DNA of 64,000 nucleotides. It comes from Labedella gwakjiensis (GTDB taxonomy: Bacteria > Actinomycetota > Actinomycetes > Actinomycetales > Microbacteriaceae). Every line of letters starts with the position of its first letter. The first letter of the stretch is position 1. The stretch lies in assembly GCF_003014675.1 (NCBI RefSeq), contig NZ_PYAU01000001.1:1984001-2048000 (forward strand), read 5' to 3'. The notes under the pieces are model-generated. The model was given only the letters and a program-made list of their open reading frames with translations. It did not search any database and was not told the origin of the DNA. Shown in pieces: positions 37,397 through 51,124 of the stretch. The translations under genes and the position numbers were made by a program.

Positions 37397-38053
37397 GTGT
37401 CGACCTGTCTCCGTCCCCTCCGCCGAGCGGCGTCGCTCTTCCTGGCCGCGGCATCCGCGCTCGCGCTCGCCGCGTGCGTCTCCGCCCCGGACGGGTCGTC
37501 CGCGCCCGACGGCTCGCCCGTCCCGCCCTCCACGGTCCCGTCCGACGCAGTGGGAGTCCTGCCCGCACCCGGGAGGACGATCGACGCCGCACCGCCCGAG
37601 ACGGGAGACCTGAGCGGCTACAGCATCGCCGTCCTCATCCCCGACGACACGGAGGCGTCTCAGACGCTGCTCGATGCGACGCGGGCATTCGCGGACGCGA
37701 GCGGGGCGGAGCTCGAGGAATTCCCCGCCGACCCGGCGGGCGACGATCCGGTCGGCGATGCTCTGGCGTCCGCGGTGGCCGCGGACGCGGACCTCGTGGT
37801 CGGCCTCGGGGAGGGTGTCGTCGGTGTCTTCGACGTCGAGACGGGCAAGATCCTCGACCAGCAGGTCCTCGTGGTCGGCGGGCAGCTCGCCGAACCCACC
37901 GAGAACGTGACGGCCGTGATCTGGCCCGGTGCCACGTCGCGGGAGCCGGCCGACGACGGGAGTGTGACATCGCAGCGCGGGATCGACGCGCTCGGTACCG
38001 GGATCGAGAGCATCCGAGCAGGACTGACCGGGGTCGTCCTGAGCCTGGGTTGA
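37397..38053 (+). CDS. Lipoprotein of unknown function
   Basis: 218 residues from a GTG start. Signal peptide with lipobox LAAC, a Ser/Pro/Asp-rich linker to about residue 70, then SGYSIAVLIPDDTEASQTLLD and an alternating alpha-beta pattern with DADLVVGLGEGVVGVFDVETG. The repeat pattern resembles one lobe of a BMP/sugar-binding-type protein, but at ~140 residues only a single lobe is present. No transport genes are adjacent. No clear ribosome binding site. Confidence 0.7.
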   Translation: MSTCLRPLRRAASLFLAAASALALAACVSAPDGSSAPDGSPVPPSTVPSDAVGVLPAPGRTIDAAPPETGDLSGYSIAVLIPDDTEASQTLLDATRAFADASGAELEEFPADPAGDDPVGDALASAVAADADLVVGLGEGVVGVFDVETGKILDQQVLVVGGQLAEPTENVTAVIWPGATSREPADDGSVTSQRGIDALGTGIESIRAGLTGVVLSLG

Positions 38054-38303: not shown

Positions 38304-41300
38304 ATGATCAGGAACGGGAGACGCGGCGTCGCCGGTCTCGTCTTGCTCTCGCTCACCGCGGGGGGACTCGCGCTGGCGAGCCTTCCCGCCGCCGCATCCA
38401 CGCCCACCGTGCTCGCGGCCGCCAGCGGCATCGCCGCCGAGCCGGTCCGGGTCCAAGCCGAGGACTACACCGGCGACAACGGCAACGGCCTCAAGAAGGA
38501 GACGTCGAGCGACTCGACGGGCGCCTCACTCGGCAACGTCGGCGGCACCTGGGACGGCGGCGAGCTCACCTACGACAAGGTCGACTTCGGTTCCGCTCCG
38601 CTGTCGTCGCTGACGGTGCGTTACGTCAATAACTCGGGCCGCGTCGGCGCGAACCCGTCGCTCGACTTCTACATCGACGAGAAGACCGACGCGAACAAGA
38701 TCGCGACGACGGCGCTCCCGGTCACCGGGACCAACTGGCAGTCCTACAACACGACGACCGTCGACCTCGCCGCCGAGGTCTCCGGCGAGCACACGCTCAT
38801 CGTGGTCATGCACGTGACCGCCGATTCCGGTCACCCGTACGTCGGCAACTTCGACTACTTCGAGTTCACGGCCGCTCCGTTGCCCGAGTCGTACCTCACC
38901 TCCGCCGATCCCTGGTCGTACTCGGACAACGGGACGGACCCGTCGGGCGACGGCTCCCTGTCGTGGACCACGGCCGCGTTCGACGACTCCGCCTGGAAGA
39001 ACGCCGCCGGATCCTTCGGATCGAAGCGCGGAGCCGCGGATCTCGGTAACGGTTTCGTCGCCAAGACGCTCGTCCAGTACGCGAAGACCGGTTCGTCCGA
39101 CACGATCGAGACCTACCACTTCCGTAACGAGTTCGAGGTCCCGGCTGGTGACCTCGCGCAGATCGAGGCTCTCGAGGGCACCGTCACGTACGACGACGCC
39201 GTGCGCATCTACGTGAACGGCGAGAAGGTCGCAGGGTTCGTCGACGACCGCGTGAACGGCGCCGCGAACCAGAACCTCACGTACGCCGGAAGCAGCGGCG
39301 GCGACCCGGTGACGAGCACCTTCCAGATCCCCGCAGACGCCCTCCAGGCGGGCGAGAACACGATCGCGATCGCGCTCTACCAGGACCGTGCGTCGAGCAG
39401 CGACATCTACCTGGACCTCAAGAGCCTCGTTCCGACGGTGGCGACCCCGGAGCCGACCGAGGCCACCATCTCGGACCTCGTGCTCGGCGTGGGAGCGACC
39501 GAGGCCGAGCGCACGCTGGCCTGGTACTCCGACGTGGACGTGCCCCAGGCGGCCCAGCTCGCGAAGAGCTCGACCGTCGTGGACGGAGCCTTCCCGGACT
39601 CGGCACGCACCATCGAGACGACGAAGACCGGCGGCACGACGAGCGGCGAGTACTTCCGCGACACCACGCTCGACGGGCTCGAGGAGAACACCGAGTACTC
39701 CTACCGCGTCGGAAGCGACGACAAGGGCTGGTCGGACGTGTACACGTTCCGCACGCAGGACTTCTCCGGGGACTTCTCGTTCTTCTTCTTCGGCGACCCG
39801 CAGCTCGGCGCCTCTGGCAACGCCGTGGCCGACGCGGCCGGGTGGCAGGACACGCTCGACGTGGCCACCCAGAGCTACCCGGACGCCGAGCTCCTCTACT
39901 CCTCGGGCGACCAGGTCGAGAGCGCGTCGAACGAGCAGCAGTACGAGCTCTTCCTCCAGTCCGATCACCTGCGGGAGCTGCCCTTCGTGGCGAACAACGG
40001 AAACCACGACGTGGGATCGAAGGCCTACGAGCAGCACTTCAACCTCCCGAACGAGGACCTCACGGCCGGTGCCGGTTCGGCCACGTCGTCGGGTGGCGAC
40101 TACTGGTTCATCTACAAGGACGTGCTGTTCCTCAACATCAACTCGAACAGCCGCGACTACACGTCGCACTACGCGTGGATGGACAAGGTCATCGCGGAGC
40201 AGGGTGACAAGGCGAAGTGGAAGGCCGTGTCCTTCCACCACTCGCTCTACTCGGTGGGACCGCACCAGGACGACGGTGACGTGATCGACCGTCGCAGCAC
40301 CATGCCGGAGAAGATCTCCGAGCTCGGCATCGACCTGGTCCTCATGGGCCACGACCACAACTACGCGCGCACCTACCTCATCAAGAACGGCCACAAGGCC
40401 GACGAGAACGAGGTTCCCGCGGCGGTCAAGGTCGAGGCGAAGGACGGCGAGGTCATGTACGTGACCGCGAACTCCTCGAGCGGCTCGAAGTACTACGACA
40501 CCGAGAACCCGGGTGCGTGGTGGGCCTCCGTCATCAACCAGGAGAAGGTGCGCAACTACACCGTCCTCGACGTCTCGGACGACGAGATCTCGGTGCGCAC
40601 GCTCCGCAGCCAGCAGAACGGTTCGGAGAAGCCCGTGAACAGCGTCGTGGACGAGGTCACGCTCACGAAGGACGCCGCTCCCGAGTTGACGGTGCCGGAG
40701 GACGGCGAGGTCGAGAAGGGCGCCGAGTTCGACCCGCGCGACGGGGTCTCCGCGACGGACAACGTCGACGGCGACCTCACCGAGGCGATCGAGGTCGCGG
40801 GCTCGGTCGACACCGCCACAGCCGGCGCGTACACCCTGACCTACACGGTGAAGGATGCTCGCGGCAACACGACGACCGCCGAGCGGATCGTCACGGTGGT
40901 CGCTCCGACGGATCCCACGGACCCGACGGACCCGCCGGTCGATCCGACGGACCCGCCGGTGGACCCGACGGACCCGCCGACCGAGCCGGGCACCCCCGAG
41001 CAGCCCACCACCACACCGGCCCCGCCGGTCGCGGACGGGTCGGACCTGCCGGAGGACCTCCGCAACGCGGTCGACGTGACGGTCTCGGGTCGAACCGTGA
41101 GCATCACCGGTCTCACCGCCGGCGAGTGGTACTACGTCTACGTGTACTCCGCGCCGACCGGAATGGGCTGGGTGCAGGCCGACGCCAACGGCGCAGCGAC
41201 GGCCACCCTCCCGGCTGACCTCGACGCAGGCGCGCACCGCGTCGCCGTGCTCGACGACGCGGGCGCACTGATCGGCTGGTCGCAGTTCGTGGTCGCGGCG

Positions 41301-41441
41301 GACACCGGTCCCGGCGACGGCCTCGCCGTGACGGGTTCCGACGCGGCAACCGCCTGGGGCTCCGTGGCACTCGCCGCGCTCCTCCTCGCCGGTGGCGGCG
41401 CCCTGCTGATCGCCCGTCGCACCCGCATCACCCAGCGCTGA
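38304..41441 (+). CDS. Cell-wall-anchored purple-acid-phosphatase-like phosphoesterase
   Basis: 1045 residues. Signal peptide 1-33; a CBM6/35-like carbohydrate-binding module at ~45-187; a beta-sandwich domain at ~190-375; a purple-acid-phosphatase N-terminal (Fn3-like) domain at ~385-490; a calcineurin-like phosphoesterase at ~490-760 with metal motifs FFFFGDPQLG, SSGDQVES, NNGNHDVG, FHHSLYS and MGHDHNYART; a DUF5011-type Ig-like domain at ~790-868; a DPTDPP linker; a pre-anchor domain at ~910-1000; then GLAVTG, a membrane helix and RRTRITQR. It should hydrolyse phosphoesters of a glycan at the cell surface. The binding module matches one in the downstream GH92 protein. Confidence 0.9.
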   Translation: MIRNGRRGVAGLVLLSLTAGGLALASLPAAASTPTVLAAASGIAAEPVRVQAEDYTGDNGNGLKKETSSDSTGASLGNVGGTWDGGELTYDKVDFGSAPLSSLTVRYVNNSGRVGANPSLDFYIDEKTDANKIATTALPVTGTNWQSYNTTTVDLAAEVSGEHTLIVVMHVTADSGHPYVGNFDYFEFTAAPLPESYLTSADPWSYSDNGTDPSGDGSLSWTTAAFDDSAWKNAAGSFGSKRGAADLGNGFVAKTLVQYAKTGSSDTIETYHFRNEFEVPAGDLAQIEALEGTVTYDDAVRIYVNGEKVAGFVDDRVNGAANQNLTYAGSSGGDPVTSTFQIPADALQAGENTIAIALYQDRASSSDIYLDLKSLVPTVATPEPTEATISDLVLGVGATEAERTLAWYSDVDVPQAAQLAKSSTVVDGAFPDSARTIETTKTGGTTSGEYFRDTTLDGLEENTEYSYRVGSDDKGWSDVYTFRTQDFSGDFSFFFFGDPQLGASGNAVADAAGWQDTLDVATQSYPDAELLYSSGDQVESASNEQQYELFLQSDHLRELPFVANNGNHDVGSKAYEQHFNLPNEDLTAGAGSATSSGGDYWFIYKDVLFLNINSNSRDYTSHYAWMDKVIAEQGDKAKWKAVSFHHSLYSVGPHQDDGDVIDRRSTMPEKISELGIDLVLMGHDHNYARTYLIKNGHKADENEVPAAVKVEAKDGEVMYVTANSSSGSKYYDTENPGAWWASVINQEKVRNYTVLDVSDDEISVRTLRSQQNGSEKPVNSVVDEVTLTKDAAPELTVPEDGEVEKGAEFDPRDGVSATDNVDGDLTEAIEVAGSVDTATAGAYTLTYTVKDARGNTTTAERIVTVVAPTDPTDPTDPPVDPTDPPVDPTDPPTEPGTPEQPTTTPAPPVADGSDLPEDLRNAVDVTVSGRTVSITGLTAGEWYYVYVYSAPTGMGWVQADANGAATATLPADLDAGAHRVAVLDDAGALIGWSQFVVAADTGPGDGLAVTGSDAATAWGSVALAALLLAGGGALLIARRTRITQR
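40913..40990 (+). repeat. In-frame DPTDPP repeat (coding)
   Basis: Tandem copies encode DPTDPP/VDPTDPP units in the phosphoesterase stalk. A similar block encodes the stalk of the GH92 protein at 46366, so the two could recombine. Confidence 0.8.
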
Positions 41442-41582
41442 CGCGCACCCCGTCGGGGGCCGGCTCGCGCCGGTCCCCGACGGTCCCCGGGCGGATGTCC
41501 GCCCACCCACGCTGCGCCCGACCTCCGCCGCGCCCACTCACGGGCCGCGTCCATCCACGCCACCCGGGAGAACCCGCCACCC

Positions 41583-44500
41583 ATGTCCACGTCACCTCGT
41601 TCCCGACGCCTCCTGGCCGGAGGGCTGCTCGCCGCGGTCCTCGCATCCGGCCTCGTGCCGGCCTCCGCGATCGCCGCCCCCTCGCCCGCCGAGGGCATCG
41701 ACTACGCCGACCTGGTCGACGCGTTCATCTCCACGGAGGACGACTTCGGGCAGGACATGCCGGGAGCCTCCGCCCCCAGCTCGATCGTCAAGATCAACCC
41801 CATGACGACGCCGGGTCGCTCCCACAGCGGCTACGACTACGCCGAGGACCAGATCGCCGGTTTCACCCACACGAATCTCGACGGCGTGGGAGGGTCGGGC
41901 GGTGGCGGTGATCTGCTCGTCGTGCCGACCTACACGAGCTACGCGAACGTCCCCACGACCGAGTCGTACGCCAAGGACTACAGCCACGACGCCGAGGACG
42001 CCGAGCCCGGCTACTACGGCGTGGAGCTCGAGACCGACAAGGGCCCGATCCTCGCCGAGGCGACCACGGACGTCCGCACCGGCCAGGAGCGCTACACGTT
42101 CCCCCAGGCCGGAAAGGCCTCGCTCGTCGTCGACCTGCGCAACAACTTCACGCGCCGTAACGACGCGTCGATCGACGTCACGACGCTCGCCGACGGGCGC
42201 GTGGCGCTGAGCGGGAAGATCGCCGGCCACTTCAACGGCTACGACTACGCGATGTACTACTACGTCGAGACGACGGACGCGACGTCGTCCGTCCGCACCT
42301 GGGGCGCCTCCGGCTCGCTCGGTTCCGCGACGCACCAGGACGGCACCAACCTCGGCGCCGTGCTCGAATTCGACGTCGATGCGGGCGAGCAGGTGGGCCT
42401 CGAGGTCGCGATCTCCCCGATCAGCGCGGCGCAGGCGAAGACCGACCTCGCGGTCGAGATGGGCGACCGCGCGTTCGAGGACGTGCGCGCAGACACGAAG
42501 GCGGACTGGAACGAGATCCTCGGCCGCCTCGCCGTGAGCGCCTCTCAGACGAGCGACCCGGACGGCGATCTGCAGGAGCTCTTCTACACGCATCTCTACC
42601 GCATGTTCGGTCAGCCCGTGAACGCGACGAGCACGAGCGGGACCTATCGCGGTCTCGACGGCGAGATCCATGAGGCCGACGGATACACGCACTACGACGG
42701 GTGGGGCACCTGGGACGACTTCCGCAAGTTCGAGGTGCTCGCGATCGGGTATCCCGAGGTCTTCCGCGACATGGCGCAGTCGCTCGTCGACCTCTACGCG
42801 TCCTTCGCGACGAGTGGGAAGAGCTCGCTGTCCGGTGTGGTCCACTCCGTCCCCACGGTACGGTTCGAGCGCGCAGCCGTGGTGATCGCCGACGCCGTCG
42901 CCAAGGGCGCCGAGCTGCGCGGCCTCGAAAACGCGTGGCCCGCTCTCGTGTCGCAATCCGCCGGAGGCTATGCCGACCCGGACAACGTCAAGCGCGGCTA
43001 CATCCCGAACGAGGTCGACGACACCCTCGGGGCCGCCTACGACGACACGGCGCTCGCGACGATCGCCGACGCCCTCGGTCGGACCGAGGAGGCCGACGGC
43101 TTCCGGCTGCGCGCGGCGAACTGGACGAACCTCTACAAGAAGGACGCGGTGACCGTCGCAGGCGGCGACACCGCCGGACTCGTGTTCCCGAGGGATGCGA
43201 ACGGTTCGTGGGTGAACGCGAACCCGGAGGCGTTCGAGGCCGGCAACGTCTACCAGGGCACGCTCTGGCAGTACAACTGGACGGTCGCGAGCGACATGGG
43301 CGGCATGATCGACCTCATGGGCGGCCAGGACGAGACCCTCTCGGCACTGAGCTTCATGTTCGGTGAGCAGGCACCCGACGACGGCTCACGCATGCTGTAT
43401 TCGAGCGCCAACGAGACCGATCTGCAGGTGCCCTACCTCTTCAACTACGTGGGCGCGCCCTCGAAGACGCAGCACTGGGTGCGCTCCCTCTATACGAAGG
43501 AGACGTGGAACCGGTACATCGCCACCGGGTCCACGGGGGAGTACCCGACGAGCGGCGGCGAGTTCCGACCCCCGATCAAGACCAAGGTCTACAAGAACTC
43601 GCCGCAGGGCTTCCTGCCCACGCAGGACAACGACACCGGGGCCATGTCGGCCACGTTCGTCGCGGCGGCGCTCGGGCTCTACCCGGTGCAGGCGGGCTCC
43701 GACTCGTACCAGATCGGCACGCCGTTCTTCGAGAATGTGCAGATCAGCTACGAGTCGGGCCGCACGTTCGACATCAGCGCGAACGGCGTCTCGCCCGACG
43801 ACTACTACATCCAGTCGGCCACTCTCAACGGCCAGGACTTCGAGCGGACGTGGGTCACGTACGACCAGCTCACCGCCGGAGGCGAGCTCGCGTTCGAGAT
43901 GGGCGATGAGGCCTCCGACTGGGCGGCCGATGGGGTGTCGGCGTCGTCGCTGAGCGACGTCCTCCCGAGCTCGGTCTACGACCCGACGAGCGCGATCTCT
44001 GTCGCTTCTCGCGAGTTCAGCGAGAGTGAGGCCGGGGACGGCTCGGTCGGCGACGAGATCGCGCTGACGCTGCGGAACGGCGCGTTCGCCGGCACGAACG
44101 GCGACGATCTCGCGGCAACCGGAGCGATCTCGGCCGACAACGTGCCGGCGGGTCTGAACCTCGTGGCGACGCGGACCGGCGACCGCGGAGTGACGCTCGC
44201 GCTCACGGGCCAGGCGGAGACGCACGGCGCACTCGACAGCATCGACGACCTCGAGCTGAGCGTCGCCGACGCGGCCTTCTCCAAGAAGCCGTCCACCGGG
44301 ACGCGCTCGTTCGCGTTCAAGGTCACGTTCGATGGTGCCGCGCTGCACGCAGAGAAGACGGCGCTCACGGCGTCGGCCGACGGCACCGTCGACACGTCGG
44401 TCGCGCTCACGATCAGCGGTGCGGCGTTCGCCGGCGTGAATGGACGGGACCTCGTGGCTGATGGCGTGCTCACCGTCCCGGGCCTCCCCGCCGGCGTCAC

Positions 44501-46637
44501 CGCGACCGCGGTGAAGCGGGACGCGACGACGATCGACCTCCGGCTGCGGGGATCGCTCGGCGACCTCCAGCGCGCACGATTCGCGCTCGCGTTCACCGAC
44601 GCGGCGTTCGTCGGCGCTCTCGCGACTGAGGTCAGCGGAGACGGCATCTCGGGCCTCGGCTCGTTCACACTCGCCGTCGACCAGCAGTGGCGCGCCAAGC
44701 TCACCGCCCTCGTCGAGGAGGCCGACCTCGTCGTGAAGGGCGCATACACGACGAGCTCGTTCGACACCTTCACGGCTGCACGGGATGCTGCGAAGACCGC
44801 CCTCGCGAACGACCAGGCGACGGACGAGCAGTTGCACTCCGCGCACACGACCCTGACCCGCGCGGCTGCGGGCCTGACGATCGCCGACACGTCGGACGAA
44901 GTGCGCCTCGACGGCACGCTCTACGGGGAGGTCCGCTTCGACGACGACTTCTCGACGGATCGACTGTCGGAGTACACCGTGTTCGGTGACGGAAGCGAGG
45001 CCTCGGCCGACGTCTCCGTCGACACCGCCGATGGCGCGCTCGAGGCAACGGCCGACGGCCGGCGGTGGAGTCACATCGCACTCCCCGCGAGCGGCGGGGA
45101 GGACTTCGCCCTGATCGTCGAGCCGAAGAGCTTCGCCGGAACGAAGGCGGCGGAGGACAGCCTGTTCATCGGCCTCACCGACGGACCGTCGAACCGCGCG
45201 CACAGCTGGTTCAACAACACGCGAACCGAGAGCGGCATGGATGTGGTCGTCGACGGGCAGGGCAAGGACATCGGCGCGGGTACCTCGACGGGCGTGGTCT
45301 GGAATCCGGGAGACCGCTTCGCGACGGTCGTGTCGGACGGTGTGATCACGTCGTGGATCGAGGAGGACGGCACGTGGCGGAAGCTCCGCTCGGGTGATCT
45401 CGGTTCGCAGCTGACGGCCGAGCAGCTCGCGGGCTGGGACCCCACACTGAGCCTGCGCCTCGACCCGGGCACGATCTCCATCGATCGGGTGACGCTCCTG
45501 GCGGCGTCCGAGGCTGTCGCGGTCGATCCGGTCCGCGTCGAGGCCGAGGCCTTCACCGGGTCGAGTGGCGGCTCCCTCGTCGCGGAGGGCACGAGCCCGA
45601 CCGGCAATGTGGGAGGCACCTACGACGGCGGACGGCTCACCTACGCCGACGTCGACTTCGGACGGGGCGAGCTGACGTCGCTCACGGTGCGCACGTCCAC
45701 ACGCGACGAGCGGGTCGGAGCGAATCCGCGACTCGAGTTCTACCTCGACGAGCCGAGCGAGGCGAACAAGGTCGGCGAGGTCGCGCTGCCGAAGACCGGC
45801 GGGTGGGGCACCTACGTGACCACGACCGTCGATCTCGCGGAGGCCGTGTCCGGTCGTCACACCCTCGTGGTCGTGATGCACTCCGATCCCGTCCCCGGCC
45901 AGTCCTACCAGTACGTGTCCAACCTGGACTGGTTCGAGTTCGCGCCGGAGGAGGGAGAGGTGCCGCCCGCCGACCTCACGACGCTGCGGGCCGCCATCGA
46001 CGGCGCCCAGGCGATCGTTGAGCATGAGGAGCGCTACGTCGCCATCGATGTGGCGGTGCTCCGCTCCGCTCTCGACGAGGCCGAGCGCGTCGCCGCCGAC
46101 CCCGACGTGACGCAGCCCGAGGCCGATGCGGCAGCGCGCATCCTGACGGCTGCGACCGAGCAGATGGTGTGGAAGGTCGTCCGGCAGCTCCCGGGTCTGA
46201 TCGAGCAGGCCGAGGCGATCGACACCGCTCCGTACTCGCCGGAGAGCGTGGCGGCGCTGGCGACAGCGCTCGACGCGGCGCGCGCCGTGGACGAGGGTGC
46301 GTCGTTCGAGACCTACACCGCGGCGGCTGAGGGGCTGCGGGCTGCCATCGCCGGGCTGGTGGAACCCACGGACCCCACGGACCCGCCGGTCGACCCGACG
46401 GACCCGCCGGTCGACCCGACGGATCCCACGGATCCGACCGATCCCACGGATCCGACGGGACCGACGACTCCGGCCGATCCGACGGACGGTTCGACCGGTG
46501 AGGCGGACGGGGGCGGCTTGGCCGTCACCGGAACCGATGGCGGCATCGTCTGGGCCGGCGGCACGCTCGCCGCCCTCCTGCTGGCCCTCGGCGCGACCCT
46601 TGTGATCGCGCGTCGCCGCGGTTTCGCCTCGCGCTGA
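41583..46637 (+). CDS. Cell-wall-anchored GH92 glycosidase with a Gln in place of the general acid
   Basis: 1684 residues. Signal peptide 1-31; GH92 catalytic region ~40-780; two tandem beta domains with GAFAGTNG / GAAFAGVNG (~800-905 and ~920-1035); a FIVAR module ~1037-1100; a laminin-G-like domain ~1118-1306; a CBM6/35 module ~1313-1455; a second FIVAR region ~1460-1590; a DPTDPP stalk; then GLAVTG, a membrane helix and RRRGFASR. GH92 enzymes are calcium-dependent exo-alpha-mannosidases. The base motif QDNDTGAM (Asp682, Asp684) is intact. The general-acid motif T-E-G-N-A-W-Q-Y reads Y-Q-G-T-L-W-Q-Y, with Gln558 for Glu. In Cellulosimicrobium cellulans CcGH92_5 the same change goes with mannose-1-phospho-6-mannose hydrolysis. 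Confidence 0.92.
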   Translation: MSTSPRSRRLLAGGLLAAVLASGLVPASAIAAPSPAEGIDYADLVDAFISTEDDFGQDMPGASAPSSIVKINPMTTPGRSHSGYDYAEDQIAGFTHTNLDGVGGSGGGGDLLVVPTYTSYANVPTTESYAKDYSHDAEDAEPGYYGVELETDKGPILAEATTDVRTGQERYTFPQAGKASLVVDLRNNFTRRNDASIDVTTLADGRVALSGKIAGHFNGYDYAMYYYVETTDATSSVRTWGASGSLGSATHQDGTNLGAVLEFDVDAGEQVGLEVAISPISAAQAKTDLAVEMGDRAFEDVRADTKADWNEILGRLAVSASQTSDPDGDLQELFYTHLYRMFGQPVNATSTSGTYRGLDGEIHEADGYTHYDGWGTWDDFRKFEVLAIGYPEVFRDMAQSLVDLYASFATSGKSSLSGVVHSVPTVRFERAAVVIADAVAKGAELRGLENAWPALVSQSAGGYADPDNVKRGYIPNEVDDTLGAAYDDTALATIADALGRTEEADGFRLRAANWTNLYKKDAVTVAGGDTAGLVFPRDANGSWVNANPEAFEAGNVYQGTLWQYNWTVASDMGGMIDLMGGQDETLSALSFMFGEQAPDDGSRMLYSSANETDLQVPYLFNYVGAPSKTQHWVRSLYTKETWNRYIATGSTGEYPTSGGEFRPPIKTKVYKNSPQGFLPTQDNDTGAMSATFVAAALGLYPVQAGSDSYQIGTPFFENVQISYESGRTFDISANGVSPDDYYIQSATLNGQDFERTWVTYDQLTAGGELAFEMGDEASDWAADGVSASSLSDVLPSSVYDPTSAISVASREFSESEAGDGSVGDEIALTLRNGAFAGTNGDDLAATGAISADNVPAGLNLVATRTGDRGVTLALTGQAETHGALDSIDDLELSVADAAFSKKPSTGTRSFAFKVTFDGAALHAEKTALTASADGTVDTSVALTISGAAFAGVNGRDLVADGVLTVPGLPAGVTATAVKRDATTIDLRLRGSLGDLQRARFALAFTDAAFVGALATEVSGDGISGLGSFTLAVDQQWRAKLTALVEEADLVVKGAYTTSSFDTFTAARDAAKTALANDQATDEQLHSAHTTLTRAAAGLTIADTSDEVRLDGTLYGEVRFDDDFSTDRLSEYTVFGDGSEASADVSVDTADGALEATADGRRWSHIALPASGGEDFALIVEPKSFAGTKAAEDSLFIGLTDGPSNRAHSWFNNTRTESGMDVVVDGQGKDIGAGTSTGVVWNPGDRFATVVSDGVITSWIEEDGTWRKLRSGDLGSQLTAEQLAGWDPTLSLRLDPGTISIDRVTLLAASEAVAVDPVRVEAEAFTGSSGGSLVAEGTSPTGNVGGTYDGGRLTYADVDFGRGELTSLTVRTSTRDERVGANPRLEFYLDEPSEANKVGEVALPKTGGWGTYVTTTVDLAEAVSGRHTLVVVMHSDPVPGQSYQYVSNLDWFEFAPEEGEVPPADLTTLRAAIDGAQAIVEHEERYVAIDVAVLRSALDEAERVAADPDVTQPEADAAARILTAATEQMVWKVVRQLPGLIEQAEAIDTAPYSPESVAALATALDAARAVDEGASFETYTAAAEGLRAAIAGLVEPTDPTDPPVDPTDPPVDPTDPTDPTDPTDPTGPTTPADPTDGSTGEADGGGLAVTGTDGGIVWAGGTLAALLLALGATLVIARRRGFASR
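46366..46470 (+). repeat. In-frame DPTDPP/DPTDPT repeat (coding)
   Basis: Encodes the proline-threonine stalk of the GH92 protein between the second FIVAR region and the sorting signal. Confidence 0.8.
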
Positions 46638-46714
46638 TCCCGAGCCGACCCGCCGCCCCGAGCCGACGTGCCCGGGGCGGCGTTGCTCGATCGTGGACGT
46701 GGGCGTATCGTAGA

Positions 46715-47563: not shown

Positions 47564-50500
47564 CTACTCCTCGGTCACACCCTCGCTCGCTCGGCGCATG
47601 CGCTTCGCGACCACGAGGCACGCTCCGAAGAGCAGCAGCGCGCTCGCGAGGCCGATCACGGGGAGTGCATCGTTCGCACCCGTCACCGCGACACCCTCGC
47701 CGGGACCGGCGGCCCCGTCGCCGGGGTCGCCCGCGCCCGGCTCACCGGTTCCCGGCTCACCCGTTCCGGGCTCCTCTCCCGGCACTTCGGCGGCGAGGAC
47801 CGTGAGGTCGTCCCAGCCGATGAGCGCGCCGGTCGCGTCCTCCACGGCCACGCGGTGGACGGCCGCCGTCGTGTCGGCGGGGATCGTCACCTCGAAGGTG
47901 CCGGCGGCCGACACGACGTGCGTGCCGAGGCCGACGGGCTCGGAGAAGAGTGTCGCCGTGAGCTCCTGCTCCGCGAGGGATGCGTCGACCGTCACCGTGA
48001 TGGTGTCGCCCGCCGTGGCCTCGGCGGGAACGCTCACGCCGCCGCGGGTGTCCTCCGTGAGGTCCTCTTCCGTGATCGGCGGCACGACGGCCGTGCCGGG
48101 TCCGGCCGACCAGTAGAGCGCGCTCGCGATGTCGCCGAACTGCCCGACCGGGTGGTTGCGGAAGGTGGGCGACGTGCCGAAGAGGAAGAAGCGGCTGCCC
48201 GCCTCCGTCTCCGACGAGATCGCCGACGCCTGTCCCGCCGCGTCCGCGGGGGAGCGGCCGTCCGAGGTGGCCCAGTGGCCCGAGACGAACACGTCGCTCG
48301 CGTAGCTCTGCTCCACGGTGACATCGTCGCCGAGCCCTACGAACCACGTGGCCGGGTAGATGAACGCGGTGTCGGCGGTGTCCGGCCCGAAGACGCTGCC
48401 CTCGGGGGTGTCGACGCGCACGATGCCGTTCGATCCGCTCGTGCCCGTGGTCGCGGTGACCTGGGCGAGCCCGTTCGTGTTCGCGAACGTCGCGCCGCCG
48501 CTGCCGCGGGCGACGACGTCGCCTCCGGCCGCGAGGTACGCGGTGAGCTTCTCGGCTCCCGCAGCGTTCTGGCCGGTGAAGCTGAGGTTGCCACCGAGGA
48601 ACAGCACGTCGAGGGTCGAGAGGTCCACGGCGCCCGAGGTGACGAGCGCGGCGCTCACAAGCACGGGCTCGTCGAAGCCGAGCTTGAGGAGCACGTCACG
48701 GTCGTCGGTCGTCGTGTATCCCACGGAGAGCGAGCGGAGCGACGTCGTCGACTCCTCCCGGAGCGCGAGTCCGTCGGTCGCCGTGAAGTCGACCCCGAAC
48801 AGGGAGGCGGCCTCCTCGGCGGCGGCGCGGCTCGCCGCGTCCTTGCCGAGCACGACCGTTCCGTCCTCGAGCTGCGAGAGCGGGATGCCTGCGTCGAGCA
48901 GGGCCGTGACGGCCTGCCATTCGGCGGTGCCAGCGGGCTCCAGAGCGAGGTACGGGCCGCCGTCGGCGACCGAACCGCCGAGGTCGACCTCGGTCACCGG
49001 CTCGACCGCGACGGTCACGGCCGCGTCGGTGGTGTCGCCGACAGACACGACATCAGCGCCCCAGAGGAGTGAGAGGCTCCACGCGGAGATGTCGTACATC
49101 TCGGAGATGCGGTCGGAGATGTCCGTCCCGTCGGCGAGCAGCACGTTGGCGAGACCGCGCAGCGGCTGGTGCATGTCCACGAGGAACGTGCCGGCCGGGT
49201 AGGTCGTGCCGTCCGCCGTGAACGGAGCGGTGGCGCGGGTGACCTCGACGTCGTTCACGAGGAGCTGCTCCACGAGCTGCTCGGCGTCGGAGCGCGAGCG
49301 CTGAGAGCCGTCCACGGGGATGACGTAGGCGCGCGGGAACGTGGCGTTGTAGATGTCCGTCTCGTCCCAGATGTCGGTCCACTCGGTGGGAACGCCGGGG
49401 GCGAGGTCCTCGGGGGCGACGTCCGCGGGGATCGGGGTCTGCTCGGCGCCGGTCACGCCGCGGTCGAAGATCTCGATCTGGTTCGCGAGCAGCGGGTCGC
49501 GGTTGTCGACGACGTACTCGATGATCGAGTCGATGACGACCTCGGCCACCTCGGTGTCGATCGCGGAGTTCTTCTTGCTCGTCTCGGGGTCGTTTGAGCG
49601 TCCGAGGGGCAGCTCGACGGTGTTCGTGATCGCGCCCTGGTACGCCACGTACTGCGGGGCGAAGATCGGGGGCCAGTCGTCCCAGCCCTCGCGGATGTCG
49701 CGGTAGGGGATCAGGATCTTGCCCGTGTTGGTCGTGGTCGGGTTGCCAGCGCCGTCGTCGTACGTGTTGCCCGGGATGTCCGCCTCGGCGACGGCCTCCT
49801 CCACCGCGAGGGCGGCGGAGTAGGCGTGCGGCAGGAAGAGGTCGTACTCGTAGTTCTCGCCGTGGGGCGGCCCGCACGGCTCGACCTGCAGGATGCCGGT
49901 GTAGCCGTGGAGGTCCACGAAGTAGGTGGGCTGGATGCGCCCGGTGATGTCGCGCAGCGCCGTTGTCGTGTTCGTCGCGTTCGTGATGAAGTCGCGGTTC
50001 GGGTCGTAGCCGTTCGCGGTGGCGCGGGTGCCGTTGAAGCGGCCGTCCGGGTTCGCGGAGACGGTGAAGTAGAGGCGCGTGGTCTCGAGGAGCTCCTTCA
50101 CCTCCGGCTCGCCCGACGTGTCGACGAGCTGCTCGATGTAGTTGAGCGTCGCGTCCGTGCCCTCCCACTCGTTGCCGTGGATGTTCGAGTTGAACCAGAT
50201 GGGCAGCTTGTAGCCGTCGGCGATGGCGGCGCTCTCGGCCGCGACGCCCGGGGTGTGCTTGATCGCGTCGCGCCATGCTGTCTGCTGCGCGGTCTCCTCA
50301 GCGGTCTCGGGCGCCGTGACGGTGACGAGGTAGAGGTCACGGCCCTGCTCGGACTGGCCGATCACCTGGGCGGAGACGTACTCGCTCTCGGCCATGAGGT
50401 CGTTGACCTTCGGGGCGATGTCGGCATAGGGCACGGCTCCGCGGAAGAGGGAGGCGTCGGTGGGGTCGGCCGGCACTTCGGTGAGCGTCGGCTGCACGGG

Positions 50501-50659
50501 GTAGCTCGTGGGCAGCGCGACGCCGCCGTCGGTGCGGACGATGGGAACGGTCGGGGCATCGAGGATGCCGGGATCGGCCAAGGCCGATGGGGCGGACAGG
50601 AAGACGGCTGATGCGGCAACGATGACGCTGCTCGCTCCGGCCACGACACGTGTGAACAC
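47564..50659 (-). CDS. Cell-wall-anchored M14 zinc carboxypeptidase-like protein
   Basis: 1031 residues from the GTG at 50659, which follows GAAAGAGACCTCC; an upstream in-frame start at 50704 is less likely. Signal peptide to about residue 29. The M14 domain (~60-400) has the zinc ligands in SNIHGNEWEG and VDLHGYTG and a likely catalytic Glu in TNTVELPLG. A ~450-residue region of unknown fold follows, with LGGNLSFTGQNAAGAEKL, which resembles a glutamine-amidotransferase-like fold as in other long M14 proteins. Then a beta domain with HRVAVEDATGALIGWDDLTV, a Gly/Glu/Pro stalk, GVAVTG, a membrane helix and a basic tail. Probably trims peptides at the cell surface. Confidence 0.9.
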   Translation of the reverse strand: MFTRVVAGASSVIVAASAVFLSAPSALADPGILDAPTVPIVRTDGGVALPTSYPVQPTLTEVPADPTDASLFRGAVPYADIAPKVNDLMAESEYVSAQVIGQSEQGRDLYLVTVTAPETAEETAQQTAWRDAIKHTPGVAAESAAIADGYKLPIWFNSNIHGNEWEGTDATLNYIEQLVDTSGEPEVKELLETTRLYFTVSANPDGRFNGTRATANGYDPNRDFITNATNTTTALRDITGRIQPTYFVDLHGYTGILQVEPCGPPHGENYEYDLFLPHAYSAALAVEEAVAEADIPGNTYDDGAGNPTTTNTGKILIPYRDIREGWDDWPPIFAPQYVAYQGAITNTVELPLGRSNDPETSKKNSAIDTEVAEVVIDSIIEYVVDNRDPLLANQIEIFDRGVTGAEQTPIPADVAPEDLAPGVPTEWTDIWDETDIYNATFPRAYVIPVDGSQRSRSDAEQLVEQLLVNDVEVTRATAPFTADGTTYPAGTFLVDMHQPLRGLANVLLADGTDISDRISEMYDISAWSLSLLWGADVVSVGDTTDAAVTVAVEPVTEVDLGGSVADGGPYLALEPAGTAEWQAVTALLDAGIPLSQLEDGTVVLGKDAASRAAAEEAASLFGVDFTATDGLALREESTTSLRSLSVGYTTTDDRDVLLKLGFDEPVLVSAALVTSGAVDLSTLDVLFLGGNLSFTGQNAAGAEKLTAYLAAGGDVVARGSGGATFANTNGLAQVTATTGTSGSNGIVRVDTPEGSVFGPDTADTAFIYPATWFVGLGDDVTVEQSYASDVFVSGHWATSDGRSPADAAGQASAISSETEAGSRFFLFGTSPTFRNHPVGQFGDIASALYWSAGPGTAVVPPITEEDLTEDTRGGVSVPAEATAGDTITVTVDASLAEQELTATLFSEPVGLGTHVVSAAGTFEVTIPADTTAAVHRVAVEDATGALIGWDDLTVLAAEVPGEEPGTGEPGTGEPGAGDPGDGAAGPGEGVAVTGANDALPVIGLASALLLFGACLVVAKRMRRASEGVTEE

Positions 50660-51124
50660 GGAGGTCTCTTTCGTTCGAGGGCACGATGGAACGACGAAAC
50701 GCACGCGCCGAGGCCGGGAGGTGTGCCGGATGGAGAGCGGTGCGGTGGCCTGAGCGGCCGGAGGGGCTGTCGTTTCAACCTAGGGACGCTATGTTTCGCC
50801 AGTGTGTCTGCTGAGGTACCTGAGCCGTCGCGGGGTGTACCCAGTTCGTGGGCCACGGAGACGGATCTGGTCGTATCGCCGCGATCCCGCGCACGATCGA
50901 TGCGTGCGGCGCACCGCTGTTGATTCGAGTGTGCGTCGTCCGGTTAGAGCTGCCGAGGACGGGCGGTGTCGATTCTCAGGACGTGCGCGACGAGGGCGTG
51001 GTCACCAGGGCGGGCTCGTCGTCCGTCTGTGCACGGCCCGATGCATCAGAACTCGAGTTGCACCTTCCGCAGCGTCATGTGATGCAGTGGATTCACGTCC
51101 GGCTTCTTGAGGAGGGCTCCTACG
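50660..51124. other. 465-bp intergenic region between divergent M14 and MerR genes
   Basis: No open reading frame with coding character on either strand. AACTCGAGTT (51050-51059) is a perfect 10-bp palindrome about 65 bp before the MerR gene and could be part of its operator. I see no RNA motif. GAGGAGG (about 51109-51115) is the MerR ribosome binding site. Confidence 0.5.

Follow-up and report, generated by a model that had tools for sequence, protein, structure and literature searches.

The window analysed here is a stretch of 64,000 nucleotides from Labedella gwakjiensis. It holds the sole GH92 gene of that genome (41583-46637) and, directly upstream on the same strand across a 141-bp gap, the gene of a metallophosphatase, which is itself preceded by that of a small lipoprotein. 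The features of the locus are as follows.

37397..38053, + strand: small lipoprotein (218 aa), which precedes the phosphatase in 14 of the loci collected
38304..41441, + strand: partner metallophosphatase gene (CBM6, PAP N-terminal domain, calcineurin-like phosphoesterase, Ig-like domain, LAVTG anchor)
38454..38870, + strand: CBM6 of the phosphatase (Pfam)
39483..40364, + strand: PAP N-terminal domain and metallophosphoesterase core (Pfam PF16656 and PF00149, over cut-off)
41448..41484, + strand: strong RNA hairpin in the phosphatase-GH92 gap (z -3.2, without a T tract)
41583..46637, + strand: Gln-acid GH92 glycosidase gene (1684 aa, ATG start, signal peptide; predicted secreted and sortase-anchored)
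41712..42416, + strand: GH92 N-terminal domain (aa 44-278; Pfam PF17678)
42432..43922, + strand: GH92 catalytic domain (aa 284 to about 780; Pfam PF07971 and model)
43254..43256, + strand: codon CAG of Gln558, the GH92 general-acid position (alignments with CcMan5 and BT3965)
43626..43634, + strand: Asp682-Asn-Asp684 catalytic base motif (Asp682 GAC at 43626, Asp684 GAC at 43632)
44697..44876, + strand: FIVAR-like domain (aa 1039-1098; under the Pfam cut-off)
44898..45512, + strand: accessory domain of about 200 aa (aa 1106-1310), without a Pfam family
45540..45941, + strand: CBM6 of the GH92 protein (aa 1320-1453; Pfam), 55% identical to that of the neighbouring phosphatase
46518..46532, + strand: LAVTG sortase-type motif of the GH92 protein (sequence), with a hydrophobic stretch and Arg residues after it

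Both GH92 Pfam matches of the protein lay above the curated cut-offs (GH92N, E 1e-47; GH92, E 1.5e-103), with bit scores of 163 for PF17678, 348 for PF07971 and 329 for TIGR01180, the last also over its cut-off. An AlphaFold model of the GH92 domain (pLDDT 90) adopts the GH92 fold, and GH92 structures took all of ranks 1-16 (Z 37-58) when solved structures were ranked against it. The closest named relatives of the domain belong to Labedella species (89-90% identity).

Glutamine at the general-acid position and kinship to CcMan5

The first-pass annotation of this DNA had pointed to Gln558 in place of the general-acid Glu in the motif YQGTLWQY, beside an intact base pair Asp682/Asp684, and both observations were borne out. 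The acid-site motif reads N-V-Y-Q-G-T-L-W-Q-Y. In a pairwise alignment with CcMan5 (CcGH92_5) of Cellulosimicrobium cellulans (54.4% identity over 758 residues, E 6e-255), Gln558 pairs with a Gln (index 536 in chain 2xsg, 552 in 4aq0), and Asp682 and Asp684 each pair with an Asp. Aligned with BT3965, Gln558 falls opposite the Glu of I-T-E-G, which we took to be the published acid Glu531 (PMC5930347). The alignment with CcMan5 that the annotation had proposed as a check thus places Gln558 on Gln536. Reliance on some other Glu at the acid place, which would have counted against the annotation, was rejected because the alignments put none there. The base of other GH92s has been assigned to Asp642/644 in BT3990 and to Asp685 in AnGH92A (PMC10167667, PMC12858847). 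Among the traits of GH92 membership, the window protein thus has the catalytic base Asp (Asp682, Asp684) and carries Gln558 where BT3990 has its general acid Glu533; since CcMan5 also lacks the Glu, we regard this residue as typical of the family and not as required for membership. Gln was invariant at the acid place in 30 of 30 aligned clade members from Actinomycetota and Bacillota, and is therefore neither a sequencing error nor a product of chance.

Structure and phylogeny place the window protein with CcMan5. The model superposed on CcMan5 (PDB 2xsg/4aq0) with Z 57.7 and an rmsd of 1.5 A over 747 residues, the next-best GH92 structure reaching Z 44.8, and in the GH92 tree the two proteins fall into one clade (100*) whose members all have Gln. 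They also share YQGTLWQY, the base Asp pair and an insertion (YTKETWNRY...PPIKTKVY), and the Cellulosimicrobium loci, like the window GH92, have C-terminal CBM6-like domains; identity to CcMan5 is 54%, however, and the Cellulosimicrobium loci are without a phosphatase within 8-10 kb. The GH92 exo-alpha-mannosidases of solved structure are only 20-29% identical to the window protein (Z 45 or less). BT3990, BT2199, BT3965, NnGH92, SpGH92 and AnGH92A have the same fold and catalytic base but work on plain alpha-mannosides, with a Glu as general acid.

CcMan5 has been reported to be active on Man-alpha-1,6-PO4-Man phosphodiester linkages, that is, on Man-alpha-1-phospho-6-Man (PMC5930347), and has been used on yeast glycans to turn mannose-1-phosphate-6-O-mannose into mannose-6-phosphate (PMC9246025). 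The annotation had linked the Gln of CcGH92_5 to this very cleavage. In ordinary GH92s the acid matters, as Gln or Ala in its place weakens or abolishes the reaction with ordinary alpha-mannosides: AnGH92A E598Q is inactive on ordinary alpha-mannosides (PMC12858847), and acid variants of BT3990 are strongly impaired, with some residual activity (PMC10167667). Because of the CcMan5 orthology and this need for the acid Glu in ordinary GH92s, the window GH92 is best read as a mannosyl-phosphodiester mannosidase, and the prediction of a mannosyl-phosphodiester alpha-1,P-mannosidase is supported. Judged from sequence, this surface enzyme of a soil-type actinobacterium very probably removes the sugar that caps phosphorylated mannan of the yeast cell wall. 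The uncapping glycosidase that the annotation had suggested is thereby upheld as a prediction, favoured by the CcMan5 orthology, the adjoining phosphatase and an alpha-mannan degradation locus in the same genome. The enzyme type itself is already known from CcMan5; what is new is the phosphatase partner, on which the annotation had been silent.

The partner phosphatase and its linkage to Gln-acid GH92s

The ORF tool began the phosphatase at a TTG (38244), while the ATG at 38304 better fits the signal peptide. The protein is predicted to be secreted, and its sortase-type motif was named by NCBIfam under that model's cut-off. Its metal-site motifs (GD-x-Q, GD, GNHD, HH and GHDH) are present, and the metal-site Asp, Asn and His residues are invariant in 18 relatives. 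The Tyr of GDxxY is absent: the window reads GDQVE, and relatives have E, N or D there. The protein thus has the N-terminal domain and the metallophosphoesterase fold of purple acid phosphatases (PAPs) and lacks their Tyr ligand; for this reason it should not be purple, and we call it PAP-like. When its catalytic part was searched with Foldseek the top matches were all PAPs (E 1.8e-19 to PPD1), and a profile search agreed. It shares an Fn3-like N-terminal domain and a dinuclear-metal phosphoesterase fold with PPD1 (3zk4), kidney bean PAP and wheat PAP phytase, from which it differs in its low identity (14-17%) and in lacking the Tyr metal ligand. As the CBM6 domains of the two neighbouring enzymes are 55% identical, both probably dock on the same polymer. 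The small lipoprotein has no Pfam family and only a weak likeness to the BMP-type lipoprotein TmpC (E 0.07); a role as a transporter part was rejected on the lack of a family and on unconvincing best matches among solved structures. In Microbacteriaceae it often accompanies the phosphatase family even without a GH92 (L140-L155).

We counted linkage in 161 distinct GH92 genes with flanks, scoring a phosphatase of this family if it lay no more than 8 kb away or shared the ORF. A phosphatase was linked or fused in 31 of 68 Gln-acid GH92s vs none of 93 Glu-acid GH92s (Fisher 1.5e-14, a value that ignores the relatedness of the genes), with Glu-acid controls that include genes from the same Paenibacillus, Bacillus, Thomasclavelia, Streptomyces and Cellulosimicrobium genomes. 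GH92 and phosphatase lie on the same strand in the 27 linked loci. Linked cases come from Labedella, Microbacterium, Agromyces, Promicromonospora and Nocardioides in Actinomycetota, and from Thomasclavelia, Clostridiales, Paenibacillus and Bacillus in Bacillota. The remaining 37 of the 68 Gln-acid GH92s, including the Cellulosimicrobium lineage of CcMan5, have no linked phosphatase, and a partner conserved in all Gln-acid loci was rejected on the Cellulosimicrobium, Streptomyces and Mycetocola loci, which have none nearby; some homologue, in several cases a weak one, is carried by 22 of 23 tested genomes without a linked phosphatase. Among 300 Microbacteriaceae genomes surveyed, the phosphatase family occurs in all 17 with a GH92 of the Gln lineages QA or QB (defined below), in 15 of 61 with other GH92s only and in 19 of 222 without GH92. 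In many of these bacteria it accompanies the small lipoprotein where no Gln-acid GH92 is present; the family is therefore not dedicated to phosphomannan. In the literature searched we came upon no description of a bacterial GH92 that is joined to a purple acid phosphatase by linkage or fusion.

Independent glutamine lineages and fusion proteins

Gln stands at the acid place in three GH92 lineages: QA (signature YQG[TNS][LM]W), which holds CcMan5 and the window protein, QB (QSTG..QYG) and QC (AQGTSAQYT). A GH92 tree built without the acid region requires three separate Glu/Gln changes on well-supported (starred) branches. Linkage to a phosphatase is confined to two of these lineages, QA and QB, within which fall all six changes that the tree needs for it. 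The Gln clades account for 26% of the tree length, so that six independent linkage gains would all fall inside them by chance with a probability of about 3e-4 (four gains, about 4e-3), parsimony being unable to tell gains from losses. A phylogeny-corrected sign test of Gln against phosphatase was dropped, as only three independent pairs give it no power. The QC lineage (L100:8873-11380 and L103:8188-10674; GFAQGTSAQYT) is nested among Glu enzymes and has no linked phosphatase.

Within QB, GH92, PAP N-terminal and metallophosphoesterase domains are joined in single ORFs.

L136:4070-9973, QB GH92-phosphatase fusion
L137:6808-12663, QB GH92-phosphatase fusion
L138:154-5799, QB GH92-phosphatase fusion
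L226:7369-12582, QB GH92-phosphatase fusion
L269:8231-12874, GH92-phosphatase fusion from the motif search, a single 1548-aa ORF

In the phosphatase tree the L137 and L226 fusions lie far from the L136/L138 pair, and both groups are apart from the QA-adjacent phosphatases; the fused phosphatases thus belong to more than one phosphatase lineage, and their recruitment happened at least twice. For a check on fresh data, we scanned the DNA of 395 genomes of the class for the QB Gln motif and nothing else. The scan gave two matches, both in other families, of which L269 is fused and L268 contiguous with a phosphatase. In L268 (6452-11959, - strand) the GH92 and the phosphatase occupy successive overlapping frames, the mark of a frameshifted fusion, a sequencing error or gene decay. 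As independently derived relatives that lost the acid are phosphatase-fused, the Gln residue looks like a real marker of uncapping chemistry, and the fusion proteins are possibly bifunctional uncapping phosphatases. We lean, with some reserve, towards the more general view that Gln in place of the acid has arisen repeatedly as a signature of mannosyl-phosphodiester cleavage, and that PAP-like phosphatases were coupled to it several times, by operon or by fusion.

The accessory domain (aa 1106-1310), present in only 8 of 300 genomes of the family, is common to two fusion proteins and the window GH92 and is a candidate mannan-binding module. Its carriers are Gln-acid GH92s of both lineages and MGH1-like hydrolases (L258, L263), and its restriction to Gln-acid GH92s was rejected because of the latter. 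A sulfatase-superfamily gene (L139:12427-14754) lies about 5 kb from a QB GH92 without a fused phosphatase, and may represent a different way to remove the anion.

A two-step model for phosphomannan and its alternatives

The genome encodes further enzymes of alpha-mannan breakdown, with GH38 genes elsewhere in addition to the following cluster, one GH76 of which carries a CBM6/35.

1.416-1.424 Mb of the genome (L248, 1.412-1.432 Mb): alpha-mannan cluster with two GH76 genes, GH125, a solute-binding protein and two permeases

These GH76, GH125 and GH38 genes form an alpha-mannan degradation set into which the removal of phosphate caps fits. We consider it likely that the window encodes a two-step, cell-wall-anchored module that strips mannosyl-phosphate from fungal mannan. 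The model is based on the CcMan5 orthology, the Gln acid position, the intact base, the metal site of the partner, the conserved pairing and the fusions; from these we infer the catalysis, the order of the steps and yeast or fungal mannan as the substrate. In the first step, the GH92 would bind the capping mannose at a Ca-dependent -1 subsite, and Asp684, with Asp682, would activate a water molecule for inverting attack at C1. The phosphate would depart without proton donation, and we propose that for this reason the acid Glu became dispensable and was replaced by Gln558. Mannose would be freed and mannose-6-phosphate would stay on the glycan. In the second step, the phosphatase, docked on the same polymer by its homologous CBM6 and held at the cell wall by the same type of sortase signal, would remove the exposed phosphate, leaving a neutral mannan open to the GH76, GH38 and GH125 enzymes encoded elsewhere in the genome. 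The same order is described for yeast mannan in Bacteroides thetaiotaomicron, where a GH38 removes the phosphate-linked mannose and phosphatases follow (reviewed in PMC10154615). That pathway, however, employs a GH38 and separate enzymes after import, whereas the window system would use a Gln-acid GH92, surface-anchored in a Gram-positive bacterium and paired or fused with a PAP-like phosphatase.

A different role for the partner is unlikely: the GH92 would uncap, and the phosphatase would be a general phosphorus-scavenging phosphomonoesterase or phosphodiesterase in a phosphate-acquisition locus, so that the two need not act serially. This is consistent with the phosphatase and lipoprotein pair of many Microbacteriaceae that lack a Gln-acid GH92, and with the presence of plant PPD1 and phytases, enzymes of phosphate scavenging, among the nearest solved folds. 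However, the homologous CBM6 on both enzymes, the restriction of linkage to Gln-acid, not Glu-acid, GH92s and the repeated fusion into one polypeptide all point to a substrate common to the two. It is quite unlikely that the substrate is another alpha-mannosyl-1-phosphate glycoconjugate, such as protozoan phosphoglycans, bacterial sugar-1-phosphate wall polymers or host glycans. The sequence names no polymer, and gut Bacillota (L038, L043) have the phosphatase-GH92 pair as well, but the GH76/GH125/ABC locus and the GH38s of this genome are typical of fungal alpha-mannan use, and CcMan5 works on yeast glycans (PMC9246025). An ordinary or broad alpha-mannosidase, its acid made good by a different residue or by substrate-assisted proton transfer, would accord with the residual activity of GH92 acid mutants (PMC10167667) but not with the dead AnGH92A E598Q (PMC12858847). 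The CcMan5 orthology, the invariance of Gln across the clade and the absence of an alternative Glu at the acid place further make this reading very improbable. A missing catalytic residue may be the sign of a pseudoenzyme, but no result of the analysis points that way, and a catalytically dead mannan-binding protein is scarcely credible for a domain that keeps its base Asp residues, is strongly conserved across two phyla and has an active orthologue in CcMan5.

As far as the literature searched shows, CcMan5 is the one GH92 characterised for uncapping, an activity that serves in making mannose-6-phosphate-tagged lysosomal enzymes. The present set adds many relatives of CcMan5, natural GH92-phosphatase fusions and a second GH92 lineage in which the same residue changed independently, for which we found no phosphomannan link in the literature searched. 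It makes the coupling of acid Glu loss to a phosphate leaving group a rule that can be tested, and offers a prediction of how fungal mannan is cleared of its phosphate decorations by Gram-positive bacteria. If the Gln acid is indeed such a recurrent signature, coupled several times to PAP-like phosphatases, the acid residue and the phosphatase partner together would be a sequence predictor of phosphomannan use, and the fusions could become one-protein tools for handling mannose-6-phosphate glycans.

Adjoining the module is an M14 zinc carboxypeptidase gene with a VAVTG surface anchor (47564-50704, - strand), which was rejected as a part of it because it lies beside this GH92 only in Labedella. 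A second strong hairpin without a T tract (about 46650-46690, z -2.9) follows just after the GH92 gene; this hairpin and that at 41448-41484 are possible terminators or transcript stabilisers.
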